This document shows positions 21,401 to 26,648 of a stretch of 64,000 nt of DNA, piece after piece (position 1 is the first letter of the stretch; each line of letters opens with the position of its first letter). This DNA is from a bacterium HR28 (GTDB taxonomy: Bacteria; Chloroflexota; Chloroflexia; Thermomicrobiales; Thermomicrobiaceae): positions 744,001 to 808,000 of the forward strand of contig BEIE01000001.1 of assembly GCA_002898255.1 (NCBI GenBank), in the 5' to 3' direction. Position numbers and translations under genes: made by a program. The notes below the pieces were generated by a model. That model was not told the DNA's origin. It searched no databases and saw nothing but the letters and a program-made list of their open reading frames with translations.

Positions 21401-22627
21401 ATGGGAGGAGAGCCAGCAGCGGTAGCTCGGGCGCAGGCGGCCGAGAAGCGCACGTTGTGGGATGCGGGTGGGGTCGCGTTAATGTCGTGGGCGCACTTCG
21501 CTCACGATCTGTACCCCTCTTTTCTTGGCGTGCTTGTCCCTGCGATCCAGGCCAAGCTCGGCGTCTCGCTCTTCTGGGCGAGCGCGATGGTTCCTGCTCA
21601 GCAGTTGCCCTCGATTGTCCAGCCGTTTCTCGGCTATGTCGCGGATCGGACGAGTCGCCGGTGGTTTGTGGTGCTCACCCCGGGAGTTGCCGCGCTCGCG
21701 CTCTCGTCGGTCGGCATTGCACCACACTTCTCCCTCGTCTTGCTCCTTCTGCTTGTCTCGGGATTGGCGTCAGCGGCGTTCCATGCTCCGGCGGTGGCGC
21801 TGGTCGGCGAGTTTGGTGGGCAGCGACTCGGCCGGGCGATGGCGATCTTCATGGCCGGTGGCGAGCTCGCCCGTACGGTTGCGCCGCTGATCCTTACCGC
21901 TGTCATAGCCCGCTTCACGCTTGACGGGATGCCGCTTGTGATGGTTGTCGGGCTTGCTGCGTCACTCACGCTTTACCTGCGGCTGCGAACCGAAGCGAGC
22001 GACGCCATCGCGCGGCGGCATGCCGGGAGTGTCCGGCTGCGTGCCTTGCTGCGCGAGCGCCGACGACCGTTCATCGGCCTGTTAGGTTCGGTCGTCGCGA
22101 ATACCGCAGCAGTGACACCGCCGAGCTTCTTCCTGGTCGAATACCTACTGCAGCGTGGGCGGAGTGAATGGTATGGAGGGCTCGCGCTTTCGGCGTTCTA
22201 TGCGAGCGGAATCATCGGTGGGCTGGTGGGTGGCTCGCTCTCCGACTGGGTCGGGCGACGGGGAGCCTTGCTCCTTTCCTCGCTCGGTACCGCACCCTTA
22301 CTTGCGCTGTATCTTGCAATCGAGGACGGGAGCTGGCTGATGCTCCCGTTGCTCGTCATCATCGGGGTGTTTGCCACCCCACCGCGGTCGGTGACCCTGG
22401 CGCTCGCCAATGACATTGCTCCGGAGGCGCGTGGTCCACTTTCAGGCTTCACGCTGGCGACAAGTTTCGTCGCACAGAGCGTGCTCGCACTCGCCTTCGG
22501 CGCGGTCGCGGACGCGATTGGGATCGAGCGGGCATTCTGGCTGACCGTCGGTGCCTCGCTGGCTGGCGTACCGTTTGCATTGCTGGTACCGGCACACATC
22601 GGGCGAGCACGTCCGGTGTCAGGCTGA
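21401..22627 (+). CDS. MFS transporter, fosmidomycin-resistance (Fsr) type
   Basis: Twelve-segment transporter of 408 residues. The beginning SWAHFAHDLYPSFLGVLVPAIQAKLGVS and the following FLGYVADRTSRRWFVVLTP and FHAPAVALVGEFGGQRLGRAMAIFMAGGELARTVAPL match the Fsr-like subgroup, whose E. coli member exports fosmidomycin. The natural substrate here is not known. ATG follows GGGGGAGATGCA. The stop overlaps the stop of the convergent cupin gene by 9 bases. It is divergent from the aco operon, so a shared signal is possible but not shown. Confidence 0.87.
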   Translation: MGGEPAAVARAQAAEKRTLWDAGGVALMSWAHFAHDLYPSFLGVLVPAIQAKLGVSLFWASAMVPAQQLPSIVQPFLGYVADRTSRRWFVVLTPGVAALALSSVGIAPHFSLVLLLLLVSGLASAAFHAPAVALVGEFGGQRLGRAMAIFMAGGELARTVAPLILTAVIARFTLDGMPLVMVVGLAASLTLYLRLRTEASDAIARRHAGSVRLRALLRERRRPFIGLLGSVVANTAAVTPPSFFLVEYLLQRGRSEWYGGLALSAFYASGIIGGLVGGSLSDWVGRRGALLLSSLGTAPLLALYLAIEDGSWLMLPLLVIIGVFATPPRSVTLALANDIAPEARGPLSGFTLATSFVAQSVLALAFGAVADAIGIERAFWLTVGASLAGVPFALLVPAHIGRARPVSG

Positions 22628-22942
22628 GGTCGGGCGATGCCCCTCAAGGCAAACCACACCCTCTGGACCGACGACGGCGCTGTGGACTGTCCCCGCAGGA
22701 AGGTCGAGGCGGTCGCCCGGGGCAAGTGTGATCGACTCACCGGGATGGAGTTGGAAGGTAATGGAACCCGAGACGACGTAGAGGACCTTATGATAGTTAT
22801 GGGCGTGCGGTGCATAGCGATCACCAGGACCATTCGACCAGCGGTAGGCGATGAGTCCCTCGACGGCAAGGGCAGCGAGCAGTTCAGCCTCGCTTGGGGG
22901 TGTCTTTCCCTGCCAGCGGGTCACACGGACGTTTTCACTCAT
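22619..22942 (-). CDS. Single-domain cupin protein
   Basis: Small cupin of 107 residues. Cupin motif 1 is near residues 38-60, YAPHAHNYHKVLYVVSGSITFQL (two His in HAH, a further His), and motif 2 is PGDRLDLPAGTVHSAVVG with its His near residue 85. Such proteins bind a metal and may act as small isomerases, oxygenases or ligand sensors; nothing more is visible. I placed the start at ATG 22942 (SENVRVTRWQGK) after GGGA; an upstream frame to 22987 looks non-coding. Confidence 0.82.
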   Translation of the reverse strand: MSENVRVTRWQGKTPPSEAELLAALAVEGLIAYRWSNGPGDRYAPHAHNYHKVLYVVSGSITFQLHPGESITLAPGDRLDLPAGTVHSAVVGPEGVVCLEGHRPTSA

Positions 22943-23013
22943 CCCACATCTCCCAAATCGCAGGAGTGCTGCCGACATAGTGCGCACCGGCGGATGGCGA
23001 AAAGGAGCGCACG

Positions 23014-24276
23014 ATGGGTGTGATCACGCGTCGCACCCCTTCCACGCTCCGCTTCGTTACCTCATGGTACCGAAGACAGCGCGTGCTCGTCTGGATCTCT
23101 GCGATTGTTGGGATCAACCAACTTGGTTTTGGGAGTATTGTGCCCATCGTCCCTCTCTACGCTCAGGCGTATGGCGTTCCCGAGGCACTCATTGGGCTCG
23201 CCATTGCCGTCTATGGGCTCGCTCGCTTCACCTCCTCCGCGCCAGCAGGTTGGGTGGCGGACCGTTCGGGACGACGCTGGTCGCTGTTCCTCGGTGGGAT
23301 GCTGACTGCCCTCGGGAATGCGATCTGTGCGATCGCACCGAGCTACCCGGTATTTCTCGCTGGCCGGTTCGTCGCTGGGAGCGGCGCCTCGATGGTACTG
23401 ACCAGTGGACAGATCGTGCTCGCCGATATCACGGAGCCGGCAACGCGTGGCCGGACAATGGCAATCTATCAAGCAGTCTTCCTCTTCGGCGTTGGATTCG
23501 GTCCAATACCGGGTGGGATCCTGGCGCAGTACGGGGGGCTAAGTCTGCCATTCTGGGTCTATGCGATCGTCGGCACGTTGGTGGCGGTATTGGCATTCTG
23601 GCGGCTGCCAGAAACCCGGCAAGCAGGAGCCAAGTCAACGGGGCGTGAGGGGGAGTTCGTCTTTGGGCGGCAGTTCGTCGCGGTGCTGCGCCATCGTCCA
23701 TTATTGCTGATTGGTGTCGTCACCTTCGGGAACTTCTTCGCCCGGACGGGAGCGCTCTTCACGCTGGTACCGTTACGCGCCGAGCGTGAAATTGGGCTCG
23801 CACCAGCCCAAATTGGCCTCGGGCTCGCAGCTGTGAGTGTTGTGTCGTTGCTGATGGCCTATCCGGCCGGCGTCCTCGTTGATCTGTTTGGGCGGAAAGT
23901 CGTCATTGCTCCCGCCACGCTCTTCAGCGGTTTAGGGTTGGTCGGTTTCGCTTTCGCGCCGAGTTATCCCTGGTTCCTCGTCGCCTGCGTCGTCTGGGCG
24001 ATGGCAAGTGGGATCGGAGGTGGAGCCCCGGCTGCATACGCGGCCGATGTTGCGCCCCCTGGCATGACCGCAGCAGCGATGAGTGCCTACCGTATGCTCT
24101 CCGAGCTCGGGTATGTCATAGGTCCGACACTCCTTGGGGTGGCGGCAGGGTGGGTAGGAATCCGCGCAACGCTCGTTGCGACAGCTGTGGGAATCGTGAG
24201 CCTTGGGTTCCTTTTTTGGCTTGCCGCTCCGGAAACCTATCGGGGCCGGAGAGGTGCAACTCCACGAAGTTCATGA
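23014..24276 (+). CDS. MFS transporter (drug-efflux like)
   Basis: Twelve-segment MFS protein of 420 residues in the DHA1 (TetA/multidrug) style. Conserved pieces are GFGSIVPIVPLYAQAYGVPE near residue 35 and GWVADRSGRRWSLFLGG (GxxxDRxGRR) near residue 82, with a second copy AGVLVDLFGRKVVIAP in the C-terminal half. Substrate not predictable. ATG follows AAAAGGAGCGCACG. The stop overlaps the convergent S51-like gene by 6 bases. Confidence 0.88.
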   Translation: MGVITRRTPSTLRFVTSWYRRQRVLVWISAIVGINQLGFGSIVPIVPLYAQAYGVPEALIGLAIAVYGLARFTSSAPAGWVADRSGRRWSLFLGGMLTALGNAICAIAPSYPVFLAGRFVAGSGASMVLTSGQIVLADITEPATRGRTMAIYQAVFLFGVGFGPIPGGILAQYGGLSLPFWVYAIVGTLVAVLAFWRLPETRQAGAKSTGREGEFVFGRQFVAVLRHRPLLLIGVVTFGNFFARTGALFTLVPLRAEREIGLAPAQIGLGLAAVSVVSLLMAYPAGVLVDLFGRKVVIAPATLFSGLGLVGFAFAPSYPWFLVACVVWAMASGIGGGAPAAYAADVAPPGMTAAAMSAYRMLSELGYVIGPTLLGVAAGWVGIRATLVATAVGIVSLGFLFWLAAPETYRGRRGATPRSS

Positions 24277-25152
24277 GTCGGTGGATCGGATGAGCGGCTC
24301 TGTCTTCAGCCACGCGAGTGGGAAGGACTGGCCACGCTCGATCCGCCGCTCGGTACCCTGGGCGAGGATCGTCACGGAGCCCACACCGAGAACGCGGGCG
24401 CTCCCGGACGCAAAGTCGAGGAGACAAGCGGTGTGCTCGTCGAGGCCGAGCACGGCCACCTCAGGTGGTAGGAGACGCAACAAAGCAGCGAAGCGCTCTT
24501 GCCCCATGAAGCATCGACTCGTGTCCAACTCTTCGCCCCCCTCGCGGTTATTCCAGTGCGGGACGATCGCCAGCTGATACCCAAGGGGACCGAGCAGATC
24601 GAGCCCCTCGCTCCAGTGGAGGTCAGCGCCAGCTTTGTAGATTTCGTACACCGGGAGAGCGAAGCGGCTTACGGCAATCGCGGCGGCACTTGCGAAGGCG
24701 AGCCGTGCACCGGTTCGCCAACGTGTGACGATGAGTTGCCAGGTCAGTGTCCCGACAAGTTGGCGGATCATATAGGTGGGACTGCCAGGACCAGCGACGA
24801 TACAGTCCGCCCACGCGAGCGGTTCGGCGACGAGCGGTGCATCAGGGTCGTAGACGCTGCCACGACGGCGCGCCGGTACAAAGCGAACGTCGGGGCGGTA
24901 TTCCGGCAAATGCTCGCGCAGGAAGTCGCCCAGCTTCCGAGCGACCAGTGCGGCATTTGGCTGGAATCCTGCAGGGGTCTCAAGGATCGCGACGTGGACG
25001 GGAGGAGAGAGGGAAGCGAACAGTGCTGCGAAGGCCTGTCGGCCAGAGCGAGAGGTCTCCCCAGAACCGATCAACGCCAGGGTACCCGGTGATACGGTGA
25101 TCAGTTGAGGAACAGCTCCTTCTCGCCCAGATGAGACCCCTGCTTGATCCAT
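24271..25152 (-). CDS. Peptidase S51/cyanophycinase-like protein
   Basis: 293 residues with the glutamine-amidotransferase-like fold used by S51 peptidases (dipeptidase E, cyanophycinase). LALIGSGETSRSGRQAF begins the fold near residue 25; CIVAGPGSPTYMIRQL (~130) stands where GGGNQ-type loops occur; the candidate nucleophile is in RLAFASAAAIAVSRF (~155), where the family normally has a Ser in SAGA. A later His-rich stretch VPHWNNREGGEE and DEHTACLL fit the rest of the pocket. The motif differences make activity uncertain. It begins 16 bases after the CcdA-like gene and is probably the last gene of that operon. Confidence 0.7.
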   Translation of the reverse strand: MDQAGVSSGREGAVPQLITVSPGTLALIGSGETSRSGRQAFAALFASLSPPVHVAILETPAGFQPNAALVARKLGDFLREHLPEYRPDVRFVPARRRGSVYDPDAPLVAEPLAWADCIVAGPGSPTYMIRQLVGTLTWQLIVTRWRTGARLAFASAAAIAVSRFALPVYEIYKAGADLHWSEGLDLLGPLGYQLAIVPHWNNREGGEELDTSRCFMGQERFAALLRLLPPEVAVLGLDEHTACLLDFASGSARVLGVGSVTILAQGTERRIERGQSFPLAWLKTEPLIRSTDS

Positions 25153-25168
25153 CCTGCCTTCCGCTCAA

Positions 25169-25903
25169 CTAGCGATACGACCACCAGTAGAGGACAATGG
25201 TCGTCCCGGCGAACACGAGCAAGGCTGCAGTAGCCGTCTGGACATAGGGGACGACGCGGCGGAGTCCGCGGAGGAGACCAAGCCGGAGAAATGCGAGCGC
25301 AAAGGTCAATGCGACGATAACGCTAGCCATACCAAGGCTGTAGCTGGCGAGTTGGAGCGTACCTCGGAGGACGTTCCCGCTGAGTAGTGCGCTCCCGGCC
25401 GCGACCATAAAGACGGGGAGTGTACAGCTCAGTGAGCACAAGCCATAGCCGAGCCCAAACAGATAGAAACTCCGCACTGAACGCTCGTCGCGATGCCCGA
25501 TGCGGTCTGCGAGGCGTTCAAAGAGCGCAGGGGCGGTCACACGACCGAGGAACAGCGCAGCTCCAAGAACGATGAGAAGGATACCGATGCTGATGCCGAC
25601 CCATGGCATGATCGGAAAGAGAAACGTGCCGCCGAGCGACACAATGACTCCTGCGAGGACGAAGAGTGTCGAGAAACCGAGCGAGACGCTGCTGCCAACC
25701 AGGGCCGCGCGCGCCAGCCGTGGGAGAACGCGCGTGGATCCCCCCTCGCTGGTACCGAGATAGAGTGCCAAATAGGCGGGGAGCATGGCAAAACCGCAGG
25801 GATTCACAGCAGCCAGCATCCCAGCACCGAAGGCATATCCAAACGGTAACCAGCTTGCGATCGCTGAGAGCCAGCTTGCGACCCACACCTGGAACTCAGT
25901 CAC
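25169..25903 (-). CDS. CcdA/DsbD-like membrane protein
   Basis: Six-segment membrane protein of 244 residues in the CcdA family, which moves reducing equivalents across the membrane through paired cysteines; some relatives carry metal ions. Cys36 is in AAVNPCGFAML, and Cys156/Cys160 are in GYGLCSLSCTLP, a CxxxC arrangement. I chose GTG 25903, preceded by AGGGGAC; a GTG at 25918 is also possible. It overlaps the small gene before it. Placement under a CmtR-like metal sensor and without a cytochrome c or thioredoxin gene nearby suggests a role in metal (for example mercury, cadmium or lead) handling rather than cytochrome biogenesis; this is inference. Confidence 0.82.
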   Translation of the reverse strand: MTEFQVWVASWLSAIASWLPFGYAFGAGMLAAVNPCGFAMLPAYLALYLGTSEGGSTRVLPRLARAALVGSSVSLGFSTLFVLAGVIVSLGGTFLFPIMPWVGISIGILLIVLGAALFLGRVTAPALFERLADRIGHRDERSVRSFYLFGLGYGLCSLSCTLPVFMVAAGSALLSGNVLRGTLQLASYSLGMASVIVALTFALAFLRLGLLRGLRRVVPYVQTATAALLVFAGTTIVLYWWSYR

Positions 25904-26108
25904 GGCTCGTCCCCTCACTCTGTGGCGTGTCCGGGAGAGAACAGGCAGGCATTCGCCGCGCGACTAACCAGGCGATGAAGGCTCCGGCAGCTGGTGCACT
26001 TGCGGCAAGCAAGACCGTCCACTGGCCAGTTGCGACGCCATAGGCTATCAACGCGCCAGTGACAAGCAACCAACCGATACGGCACGGAGCCAGGAAGAAC
26101 TCGCGCAC
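25896..26108 (-). CDS. Small membrane protein in metal-sensor operon
   Basis: About 70 residues with two hydrophobic segments (GWLLVTGALIAYGVATG and WTVLLAASAPAAGAFIAWLV). One Cys lies before the first segment (LAPCRIG) and one after the second (MPACSLP), which recalls the size and cysteine placing of small mercury-transport proteins, though no MerT or MerF signature is clear. Start GTG 26108 follows GAGG; a TTG at 26114 overlapping the regulator stop is the alternative. It overlaps both neighbours or nearly so, hence one operon. Confidence 0.65.
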   Translation of the reverse strand: MREFFLAPCRIGWLLVTGALIAYGVATGQWTVLLAASAPAAGAFIAWLVARRMPACSLPDTPQSEGTSRD

Positions 26109-26110
26109 GC

Positions 26111-26545
26111 TCAATCCTCCACGAGGTCATGACGTTCTGCGTATGCACAACTGGCGATTGCCGCTAGATGTGGGCGCGCGAGTTCGCGCGCCAGGGCGAG
26201 CAGGGCAGGAATACGCTGGTCGCTGATGGCATAGAAGCGATACTTCCCCTCGCGGCGAACGCGTACCAACCCGCAGGTACGTAAACACGTCAAGTGCGCA
26301 GAGACGCGCCCTTGTGGCTGTGCGAGTCGTTCCACCAGCGCGCTCACATGGAGTTCTCCCTCACGTGTCAGGAGATCGAGGATGCGTAGGCGAGTAGGAT
26401 CGGAGAGCGCATGGAGAAAACGGGCGAGAATCGATGGGGGTACCTCTCCTGGATCAAAAGGCGCCTCAATCCGACGGCTGCGGATGGGCAGGGTCCGCGG
26501 ATGCTTGCGTTCAGCCAGCTGCAGTTCTTCGGCCTGTTCTGCCAT
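26111..26545 (-). CDS. ArsR-family metal sensor, CmtR-like
   Basis: Winged-helix repressor of 144 residues. The HTH core is ILARFLHALSDPTRLRILDLLT...VSALVERLAQPQGRVSAHLTCLRTCGLVRVRREGKYRFYAI. Cys87 and Cys91 in HLTCLRTCGL and Cys133 in SCAYAERHD match the three thiols (C-x3-C in the recognition helix plus a C-terminal Cys before AER) by which mycobacterial CmtR binds cadmium or lead. So it probably lifts repression of the operon on Cd(II)/Pb(II) or a similar soft metal. ATG 26545 follows GGGAGAAG. First gene of a four-gene minus-strand operon. It has a ~35-residue N-terminal extension compared with CmtR. Confidence 0.85.
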   Translation of the reverse strand: MAEQAEELQLAERKHPRTLPIRSRRIEAPFDPGEVPPSILARFLHALSDPTRLRILDLLTREGELHVSALVERLAQPQGRVSAHLTCLRTCGLVRVRREGKYRFYAISDQRIPALLALARELARPHLAAIASCAYAERHDLVED

Positions 26546-26618
26546 GCTCGCTTCTCCCGGAAGAAGTGTACTGGTTCCACTCGAAGAGCATATCCGTCGC
26601 ACTTTGGTGGATAGGAAA

Positions 26619-26648
26619 ACGGGCGACCACCACACGGTGGCCGCCCGT
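26619..26648 (-). terminator. Intrinsic terminator after the membrane/coiled-coil gene
   Basis: Read on the minus strand, a hairpin with 7-bp (acgggcg/cgcccgt) and 5-bp (ccacc/ggtgg) stems split by one mismatch and a 4-base loop is followed by TTTTCCT. It lies 46 bases after the stop at 26694, and just before the ArsR operon, so it insulates the two units. Confidence 0.75.

Follow-up and report, generated by a model that had tools for sequence, protein, structure and literature searches.

An ArsR regulator and a CcdA-like protein of a Thermomicrobium-like genome as a possible piece of a dispersed mercury-resistance system

A four-gene operon and its surroundings

The analyzed window is a stretch of 64,000 nucleotides from a Thermomicrobium-like genome (G000:C1:744001-808000; G000 is the genome itself and the other G numbers denote compared genomes). 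A minus-strand operon in this window codes for an ArsR/SmtB-family regulator, a small putative membrane protein, a CcdA-like membrane protein, and an S51-like protein. An earlier note, made from the sequence alone, had described it as a unit in which a CmtR-like cadmium/lead sensor controls membrane proteins of a metal-handling route. The features of the locus are as follows.

26111..26545, minus strand: ArsR/SmtB-family regulator, 144 amino acids, with C87-x3-C91 and C133 (HTH_metalloreg of NCBIfam, alignment, 2jsc)
25896..26114, minus strand: 72-amino-acid protein with two hydrophobic segments and cysteines C11 and C58 (matches within the genus only, no family)
25169..25903, minus strand: CcdA-like membrane protein, 244 amino acids from the GTG at 25903, with redox-type cysteines C36/C160 (PF02683, fold, tree)
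24271..25152, minus strand: S51/cyanophycinase-like protein, 293 amino acids (PF03575 below cut-off, 6nqc)
26565..26570, minus strand: TACACT, possible -10 hexamer of the ArsR unit (present in 6/6 genus genomes)
26616..26646, minus strand: terminator-like hairpin between the upstream gene and the operon (fold -29.2 kcal/mol, z -5.5)

The four co-directional open reading frames are real genes, and the order ArsR, 72-residue protein, CcdA, and S51, followed by MFS, cupin, and MFS genes, is kept in six of the seven genomes of the genus. The seventh, G004, lacks the locus and is 54% complete. The earlier description of an operon joined by overlaps holds for ArsR and the 72-residue protein (4 nt) and for the latter and CcdA (8 nt, with the GTG at 25903, suggested by relatives, taken as the CcdA start), and fails for CcdA and S51, which are separated by a gap of 16 nt. 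The hairpin is followed by a short T run and precedes the ArsR gene, so the transcription unit probably begins after it, and the operon is probably separated from the upstream gene by this terminator-like structure. A consensus terminator scan returned no minus-strand site at the hairpin and listed a site on the opposite strand only. A scan upstream of the ArsR unit gave no full sigma-70 promoter match; TACACT is conserved there together with its flank in all six genus genomes with the locus.

The 72-residue protein is present in 6 of the 41 genomes searched (G000 included), all within the genus. The small membrane protein of the earlier note is consistent with what was found in part: two hydrophobic stretches are visible by eye and C11 and C58 are invariant in all six copies. 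The protein matched no Pfam or NCBIfam family over the cut-off. A diverged MerE (PF05052) was considered and ruled out, with an hhalign probability of 2.4% and no CPC motif, and also by G001, which has the 72-residue protein plus a separate CPC protein at another locus. A role in thiol handling is our guess.

ArsR and CcdA in mercury loci of relatives and plasmids

On the basis of sequence, ArsR and CcdA proteins of the window type belong to mer loci with MerA in relatives from the same family. The gene order in G009, G016, and G013 is MerT-like, MerA, ArsR, MerE-like, TlpA, and CcdA (the TlpA frames are split in G016, and G013 has a single TlpA), and in G008 a run of ArsR, MerE, TlpA, TlpA, and CcdA lies at the end of one contig, and MerA at that of a second. 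In a tree of 45 rows, the CcdA of the genus and that of the mer loci in G008, G009, G013, and G016 are sister groups (support 100/95). Neighborhood analysis for mercury or cadmium genes, which the earlier note had proposed as a check, was decisive: the same ArsR and CcdA stand in mercury loci. The MerA equivalog model gave 566 bits for G016 and 521 bits for G000 (cut-off 454). Pfam MerE scored 30.3 bits in G008, over its cut-off of 22.8, remained below it in G043, and had no match in the G009 and G001 proteins, so the label "MerE-like" outside G008 rests on the CPC motif and position. Likewise, the MerT-like proteins of G016, G005, and G001 matched no Pfam or NCBIfam family and are named from a CC motif and position. 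The locus of G043 also has a MerE-like gene and TlpA, and there an ArsP-like permease (PF03773, 99.6 bits; L070 4839-5927) lies between ArsR and CcdA.

The comparison with plasmids covers 4 of the 57 plasmid records with a CcdA match. In Rhodococcus ruber (NZ_CP044212) and Mycolicibacterium chubuense (NC_018022), genes for ArsR, a hypothetical protein, a TlpA/thioredoxin protein, and CcdA lie beside merA and merB, and the small protein of R. ruber has a weak MerT match below the cut-off. ArsR and TlpA-CcdA are divergent on a Pseudonocardia mercury plasmid, and a Pseudarthrobacter plasmid has TlpA-CcdA some kilobases from merB-merA, with no ArsR listed. The Thermomicrobium operon shares ArsR, a small protein, and CcdA with this actinobacterial module, which also includes a thioredoxin-like protein; it differs in the position of MerA, which is encoded elsewhere, in having no TlpA at the locus and a different small protein, and in the S51-like gene after CcdA. 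The "different metal-handling route" of the earlier note thus gives way to parts of a mercury-resistance system of a kind also found on actinobacterial plasmids.

The published record, for which we had excerpts of the papers cited here, places these genes in related settings. PMC3466566 counts arsR in 22 of 272 mer operons and reports that ArsR represses mer in Sulfolobus and Streptomyces; by its description, the arsR genes of Streptomyces lividans and Sulfolobus solfataricus are part of the mer operons, and the window ArsR would resemble these Hg repressors in function. A table in PMC12195606 labels CcdA and TrxA of bacteria like those with the plasmids above as "mercury transporter" and one ArsR as a mer repressor. 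MerA is reported from many Chloroflexi in PMC8261052, the excerpt of which does not contain the terms Thermomicrob or cytochrome c, and a Thermus mer operon and induction of tlpA by Hg(II) are described in PMC6445937. Literature searches, with most subscription journals outside their coverage, did not turn up an account of Thermomicrobium with a dispersed mer system. Among the excerpts, no paper combined CmtR and CcdA, and CcdA occurred with merA only as table entries in PMC12195606.

Dispersed MerA and a shared palindrome

MerA in G000 is encoded away from the operon. A single MerA over the curated cut-off was found, at G000:C2:528170-529549, on a different contig from the window, and the window operon, with no MerA in its transcription unit, is not in itself a mer operon. 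Six of the seven genus genomes have MerA (the exception is the incomplete G004), as do 10 of 21 family genomes, and no ArsR was found beside it in any of the six genus MerA loci. G001 has a third locus with MerT-like, MerE-like, and two TlpA genes. The MerA N-terminus of G003 resembles that of G000, and the MerA proteins of G001, G002, G005, G006, and G009 keep GMTCxxC.

The palindrome ATACG-N6-CGTAT lies in exact form upstream of MerA in G000 (634 nt before the start, at G000:C2:530454-530469), G003 (635 nt), and G002 (109 nt), 69 nt upstream of MerT-MerA in G005, and upstream of the MerT-MerE-TlpA-TlpA genes of G001. Sites with mismatches occur at MerA in G001 (one and two), G006 (two), G016 (one), and G013 (two). 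In total, 10 of the 11 family mer promoter regions examined have a site with at most two mismatches, exact in five; the two-mismatch site of the G008 MerT region is at chance level (121 of 1,000 shuffles, for the loosened form below), and the other nine are better. Background frequencies, determined in 14 loci with 230,915 positions in all (the mer sites among them), were 1.6e-4 per position for two mismatches and about 5e-5 for closer sites. The only exact copy in the whole of G000 is the one before MerA, and the seven genus genomes contain nine exact copies, five of them in mer promoter regions, compared with three for a reversed control. A stricter composite promoter pattern matched G001 and G002 only.

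A loosened form, ATNCG-N6-CGNAT, leaves the third base of each half free and was chosen after seeing the data. It occurs without mismatch beside ArsR in R. ruber, M. chubuense, and Pseudonocardia, which are the three ArsR-bearing mer plasmids, and these sites were equalled by 1, 0, and 4 of 1,000 shuffles, respectively. The background for the loosened form is 9 in 228,286 positions of 13 loci, the three plasmid loci included. Two regions of the Pseudarthrobacter plasmid had no perfect loosened site. The Pseudonocardia plasmid also carries a perfect 10-4-10 palindrome between ArsR and TlpA (L195 3031-3054), the core of which fits the loosened form.

A palindrome like that of merA was rejected for the ArsR operon, where matches upstream of ArsR are at chance level, and the loosened form also fails in the four genomes tried. 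The mer-promoter palindrome is absent upstream of ArsR in 6/6 genus genomes, which counts against the earlier statement that the sensor controls this operon. Since the palindrome stands before merA and is absent upstream of the window ArsR, MerA is a likelier target than the operon itself, and regulation of MerA in trans by the window ArsR appears more likely than regulation of its own operon. A MerA over the cut-off and a palindrome shared with ArsR-bearing mer operons would fit a mer regulon under the window ArsR, for which a paralogue, L002 (described below), is a competitor.

The ArsR sensor and its paralogue

The window ArsR is a metalloregulator by the NCBIfam model NF033788 (HTH_metalloreg, 88.1 bits, cut-off 55). 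Its best relative in the PDB is CmtR of Mycobacterium tuberculosis (2jsc), in which C87 and C91 align with HLSCLRGCGLV, and C87, C91, and C133 are invariant in 11/11 aligned sequences from five genera, the window's included. These results bear out the CmtR-type pattern of the earlier note, C87-x3-C91 plus C133. The three-cysteine site of CmtR (C57, C61, and C102) is represented, with C133 matched to C102 by spacing only: 42 residues lead to the C-terminal cysteine in the window ArsR and 41 in CmtR (C61-C102; numbering from the excerpt of PMC7863910; PMC3378830, also seen as an excerpt, treats CmtR as well). The likeness to CmtR thus consists of the ArsR family, a C-x3-C at the corresponding place, and the cysteine toward the C-terminus. 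The two differ in that the window ArsR falls below the CmtR family cut-off (NF047906, 58.4 bits, cut-off 150) and its orthologues are linked to MerA, not to a P-type ATPase.

Five further ArsR-like matches were found in G000. One of them, L002 (G000:C1:731111; L301 about 5112), lies ~13 kb away from the window, shares the CxxxC and the C-terminal cysteine, and is immediately followed by a P-type ATPase of the cadmium family (TIGR01512, 454 bits, cut-off 313.5). Of the remaining four, L004, L005, and L006 do not have this pattern, and the filter used did not recover L003. The CmtR cut-off alone is not deciding because the ATPase-linked paralogue also falls below it, at 69.1 bits, a score that exceeds that of the window ArsR. 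L002 and the cadmium-type ATPase are the CmtR-like pair of this genome; G000 therefore already couples a CmtR-like sensor to a pump, and the window ArsR is an additional member, of the mer type. The mer-promoter palindrome was not found in the 201 bases upstream of L002. Identity with CmtR, as the earlier note had it, is not upheld by the model score, by the nearest relatives in MerA loci, or by the other three-cysteine ArsR beside an ATPase. Its broader view, that a CmtR-type thiol metal sensor without a P-type ATPase is tied to metal handling with thiol-bearing membrane proteins, stands.

CcdA and cytochrome c maturation

The CcdA-like protein matches PF02683 (DsbD_TM) with 31.9 bits over the gathering cut-off of 27.1, and NPCG is conserved in its relatives. 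The earlier assignment to CcdA is supported by these two results, and its CxxxC is ruled out as a family motif: the second cysteine, C160, is invariant and the first position is alanine in 9 of 12 rows. The best fold match of a structural model is CcdA 5vkv (Foldseek prob 0.98, E 0.084, TM about 0.5). The model was built from a 25-row alignment without L124, L125 (stop), and L131, and it has a predicted local distance difference test score (pLDDT) of 66.9 and a predicted template modeling score (pTM) of 0.57; the fold match lends weak support because the model is only moderate. Compared with the CcdA of cytochrome maturation (5vkv and the ccm clusters of the order), the window protein has a predicted CcdA-like fold and two conserved cysteines in matching places; it carries the motifs NPCGFAMLPAY and SLSCTLPVF instead of SPC.LPL.P and GWTPC.GP and lies outside the ccm cluster.

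This is the only CcdA-family protein identified in G000 by a protein search and a Pfam search, in which DsbD_2 (PF13386) was not included, and the Pfam CcdA model misses the divergent CcdA of G007, G010, and G012. The ccm cluster of G000 (L239 4113-10757; G000:C1:1162112 on) codes for CcmG, a CopD-like protein, CcmE, CcmF, an ABC protein, and a CcmC-like protein, and it has no CcdA; the same holds for 16 other family genomes examined. Among 30 CcmG-like loci, 18 are ccm loci of the family, of which 17 have CcmG-CopD-CcmE without CcdA (the exception is G011). CcmG-CcdA-CopD occurs in 5/5 loci of another family (f2) and before CcmF in G021; G027 has CcdA, G023 does not, and five loci have no ccm neighbor. 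Because the window CcdA is the sole carrier found and the ccm cluster has no CcdA, it may also serve cytochromes, and cytochrome c maturation, which the earlier note had named as a finding that would speak against its reading, is plausible as a second role.

The wider CcdA search covered the best 80 of at least 576 places, and many loci were truncated by contig ends. TlpA genes just upstream of CcdA have an in-frame TGA at the first cysteine of CxxC (FMAGW*xxC) in 5 of 13 loci scanned (L122, L124, L127, L129, and L130, from Rubrobacteraceae or actinobacterial metagenome-assembled genomes). Each TGA is followed by a stable hairpin of similar sequence (-20.0 to -24.3 kcal/mol), and these TlpA proteins beside CcdA are probably selenocysteine proteins, judging from the reading frames and hairpins.

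A mer system that may have come apart

With confidence slightly better than even, we interpret the operon as one fragment, with the regulator and CcdA, of a mer system whose parts have become separated in Thermomicrobium, and ArsR as acting on a distant merA. An ArsR dimer would repress the merA unit at the palindrome; Hg(II), and possibly also Cd or Pb, would be bound by C87, C91, and C133 and cause release of ArsR; and the MerA then made would reduce Hg(II) to Hg(0). CcdA (C36/C160) would pass electrons from cytoplasmic thioredoxin to extracytoplasmic thioredoxin-like proteins, with the mer TlpA pair as partner where present and otherwise CcmG or another ResA-like protein, and a partner of the latter kind would make CcdA the reductant supply for cytochrome c maturation too. 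What we infer in this scheme is the metal to which the sensor responds, its binding to the operator, and the protein that exchanges electrons with CcdA. The locus is more specific than the earlier note supposed: its context is mercury rather than cadmium, and control in trans rather than of the operon itself is probable. The fuller version, in which the mer CcdA is the only transmembrane thiol-reductant carrier of the cell, for cytochromes and mer alike, while ArsR controls mercury reductase in trans, is a tentative proposal that we regard as rather doubtful.

Several findings weigh against a dispersed mer system. The best sites upstream of the window ArsR have four to five mismatches at standard spacing in 6/6 genomes, which is the level of shuffled sequence, and three mismatches with looser spacing. 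The mer locus of G009 has no palindrome, and the class-level mer-like loci of G043 and G071 have no site with two or fewer mismatches as scanned; because of these gaps and the one at the ArsR promoter, the pairing of ArsR with the palindrome is a putative one. The four exact copies outside mer promoter regions lie inside reading frames (G003, G004, and G005) and in a CRISPR-like array (G001), and the sites of G000 and G003 do not adjoin MerA, given their distance of 634-635 nt from its start. The paralogue L002 could compete for the merA site. The MerA of G000 (L101; G000:C2:528170-529819) has no HMA domain match and reads GCVLSK, with leucine for proline, where the other MerA copies compared have GCVPSK, and the 72-residue protein is not MerE. 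Finally, a MerA ending in a cysteine pair is present in 4 and a CxxxC ArsR in 8 of 79 named CcdA loci, and G007 and G012 have this CcdA without MerA and without an adjacent ArsR; the CcdA clade is therefore not mercury-specific.

The presence of this CcdA in G007 and G012 also favors a housekeeping unit, in which CcdA is the reductant carrier for cytochrome c, replacing a lost ccm CcdA, and ArsR is a leftover or tunes the unit to thiol stress. The single CcdA-family protein of G000, its ccm cluster without CcdA, the contrast between the family ccm loci (17/18 without CcdA) and those of f2 (5/5 with it), and the absence of mer TlpA from the window locus all agree with such a unit. However, a purely housekeeping role leaves unexplained why a three-cysteine ArsR stands beside CcdA in 6/7 genus genomes; MerA is kept in the same genomes, and another carrier may exist, as PF13386 proteins were not searched for. 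On balance we hold this explanation to be unlikely. Control of merA by another regulator, such as the ATPase-linked L002, with the window ArsR acting on an unrecognized site at its own operon, would fit the shared cysteine pattern and higher CmtR score of the paralogue (69.1 against 58.4 bits), and the TACACT region conserved in 6/6 genomes could hide an operator. The absence of the palindrome upstream of L002 and the position of the window-ArsR orthologue inside the MerA locus in G009, G016, and G013 argue against it, and we consider it improbable.

Thiol sites for Cd, Pb, and Hg are similar, and the cysteine pattern and best PDB relative of the window ArsR are those of CmtR, as would be expected of a true Cd/Pb sensor that regulates its own operon and has nothing to do with mercury. 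That explanation is very improbable given 58 bits against a cut-off of 150, the closest orthologues in MerA loci, and the CmtR-like protein that the genome already has with its cadmium-family ATPase. Least probable, to the point of being barely credible, is a chance neighborhood, in which a metal-sensor gene overlaps membrane and peptidase genes that are unrelated to it. The adjacency of S51, MFS, and cupin genes persists where the mer genes differ, but the order ArsR, 72-residue protein, CcdA, and S51 is kept in 6/7 genus genomes, and ArsR is found with CcdA again in further genera as well as on plasmids of actinobacteria.

Mercury loci of both Actinomycetota and Chloroflexota repeatedly contain CcdA and TlpA, whose role the literature excerpts give only in the form of database labels. 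A natural test is available in Thermomicrobium, which has retained CcdA with the mer TlpA lost and with no CcdA of its own in the ccm cluster. If the dispersed system is real, a mer regulon tied together by one palindrome would mean that a resistance operon can fall apart with its control retained, and it would be a warning against inferring the target of an ArsR sensor from neighboring genes. If CcdA has the double role as well, a resistance gene would have turned into a housekeeping gene in a mer operon that is dispersed yet still one regulon.

The S51-like protein and its neighbors

The S51-like protein scored 16.2 bits with PF03575, below the cut-off of 23.9, and has a cyanophycinase-like relative in the PDB (6nqc, E 7e-8); the earlier label is thus backed by the structural relative and not by the Pfam family. 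The S51-like, MFS, cupin, and second MFS genes (window 21401-25152) form a constant group in the six genus genomes that have the locus, and part of this group is also kept in G008, G013, and G016.

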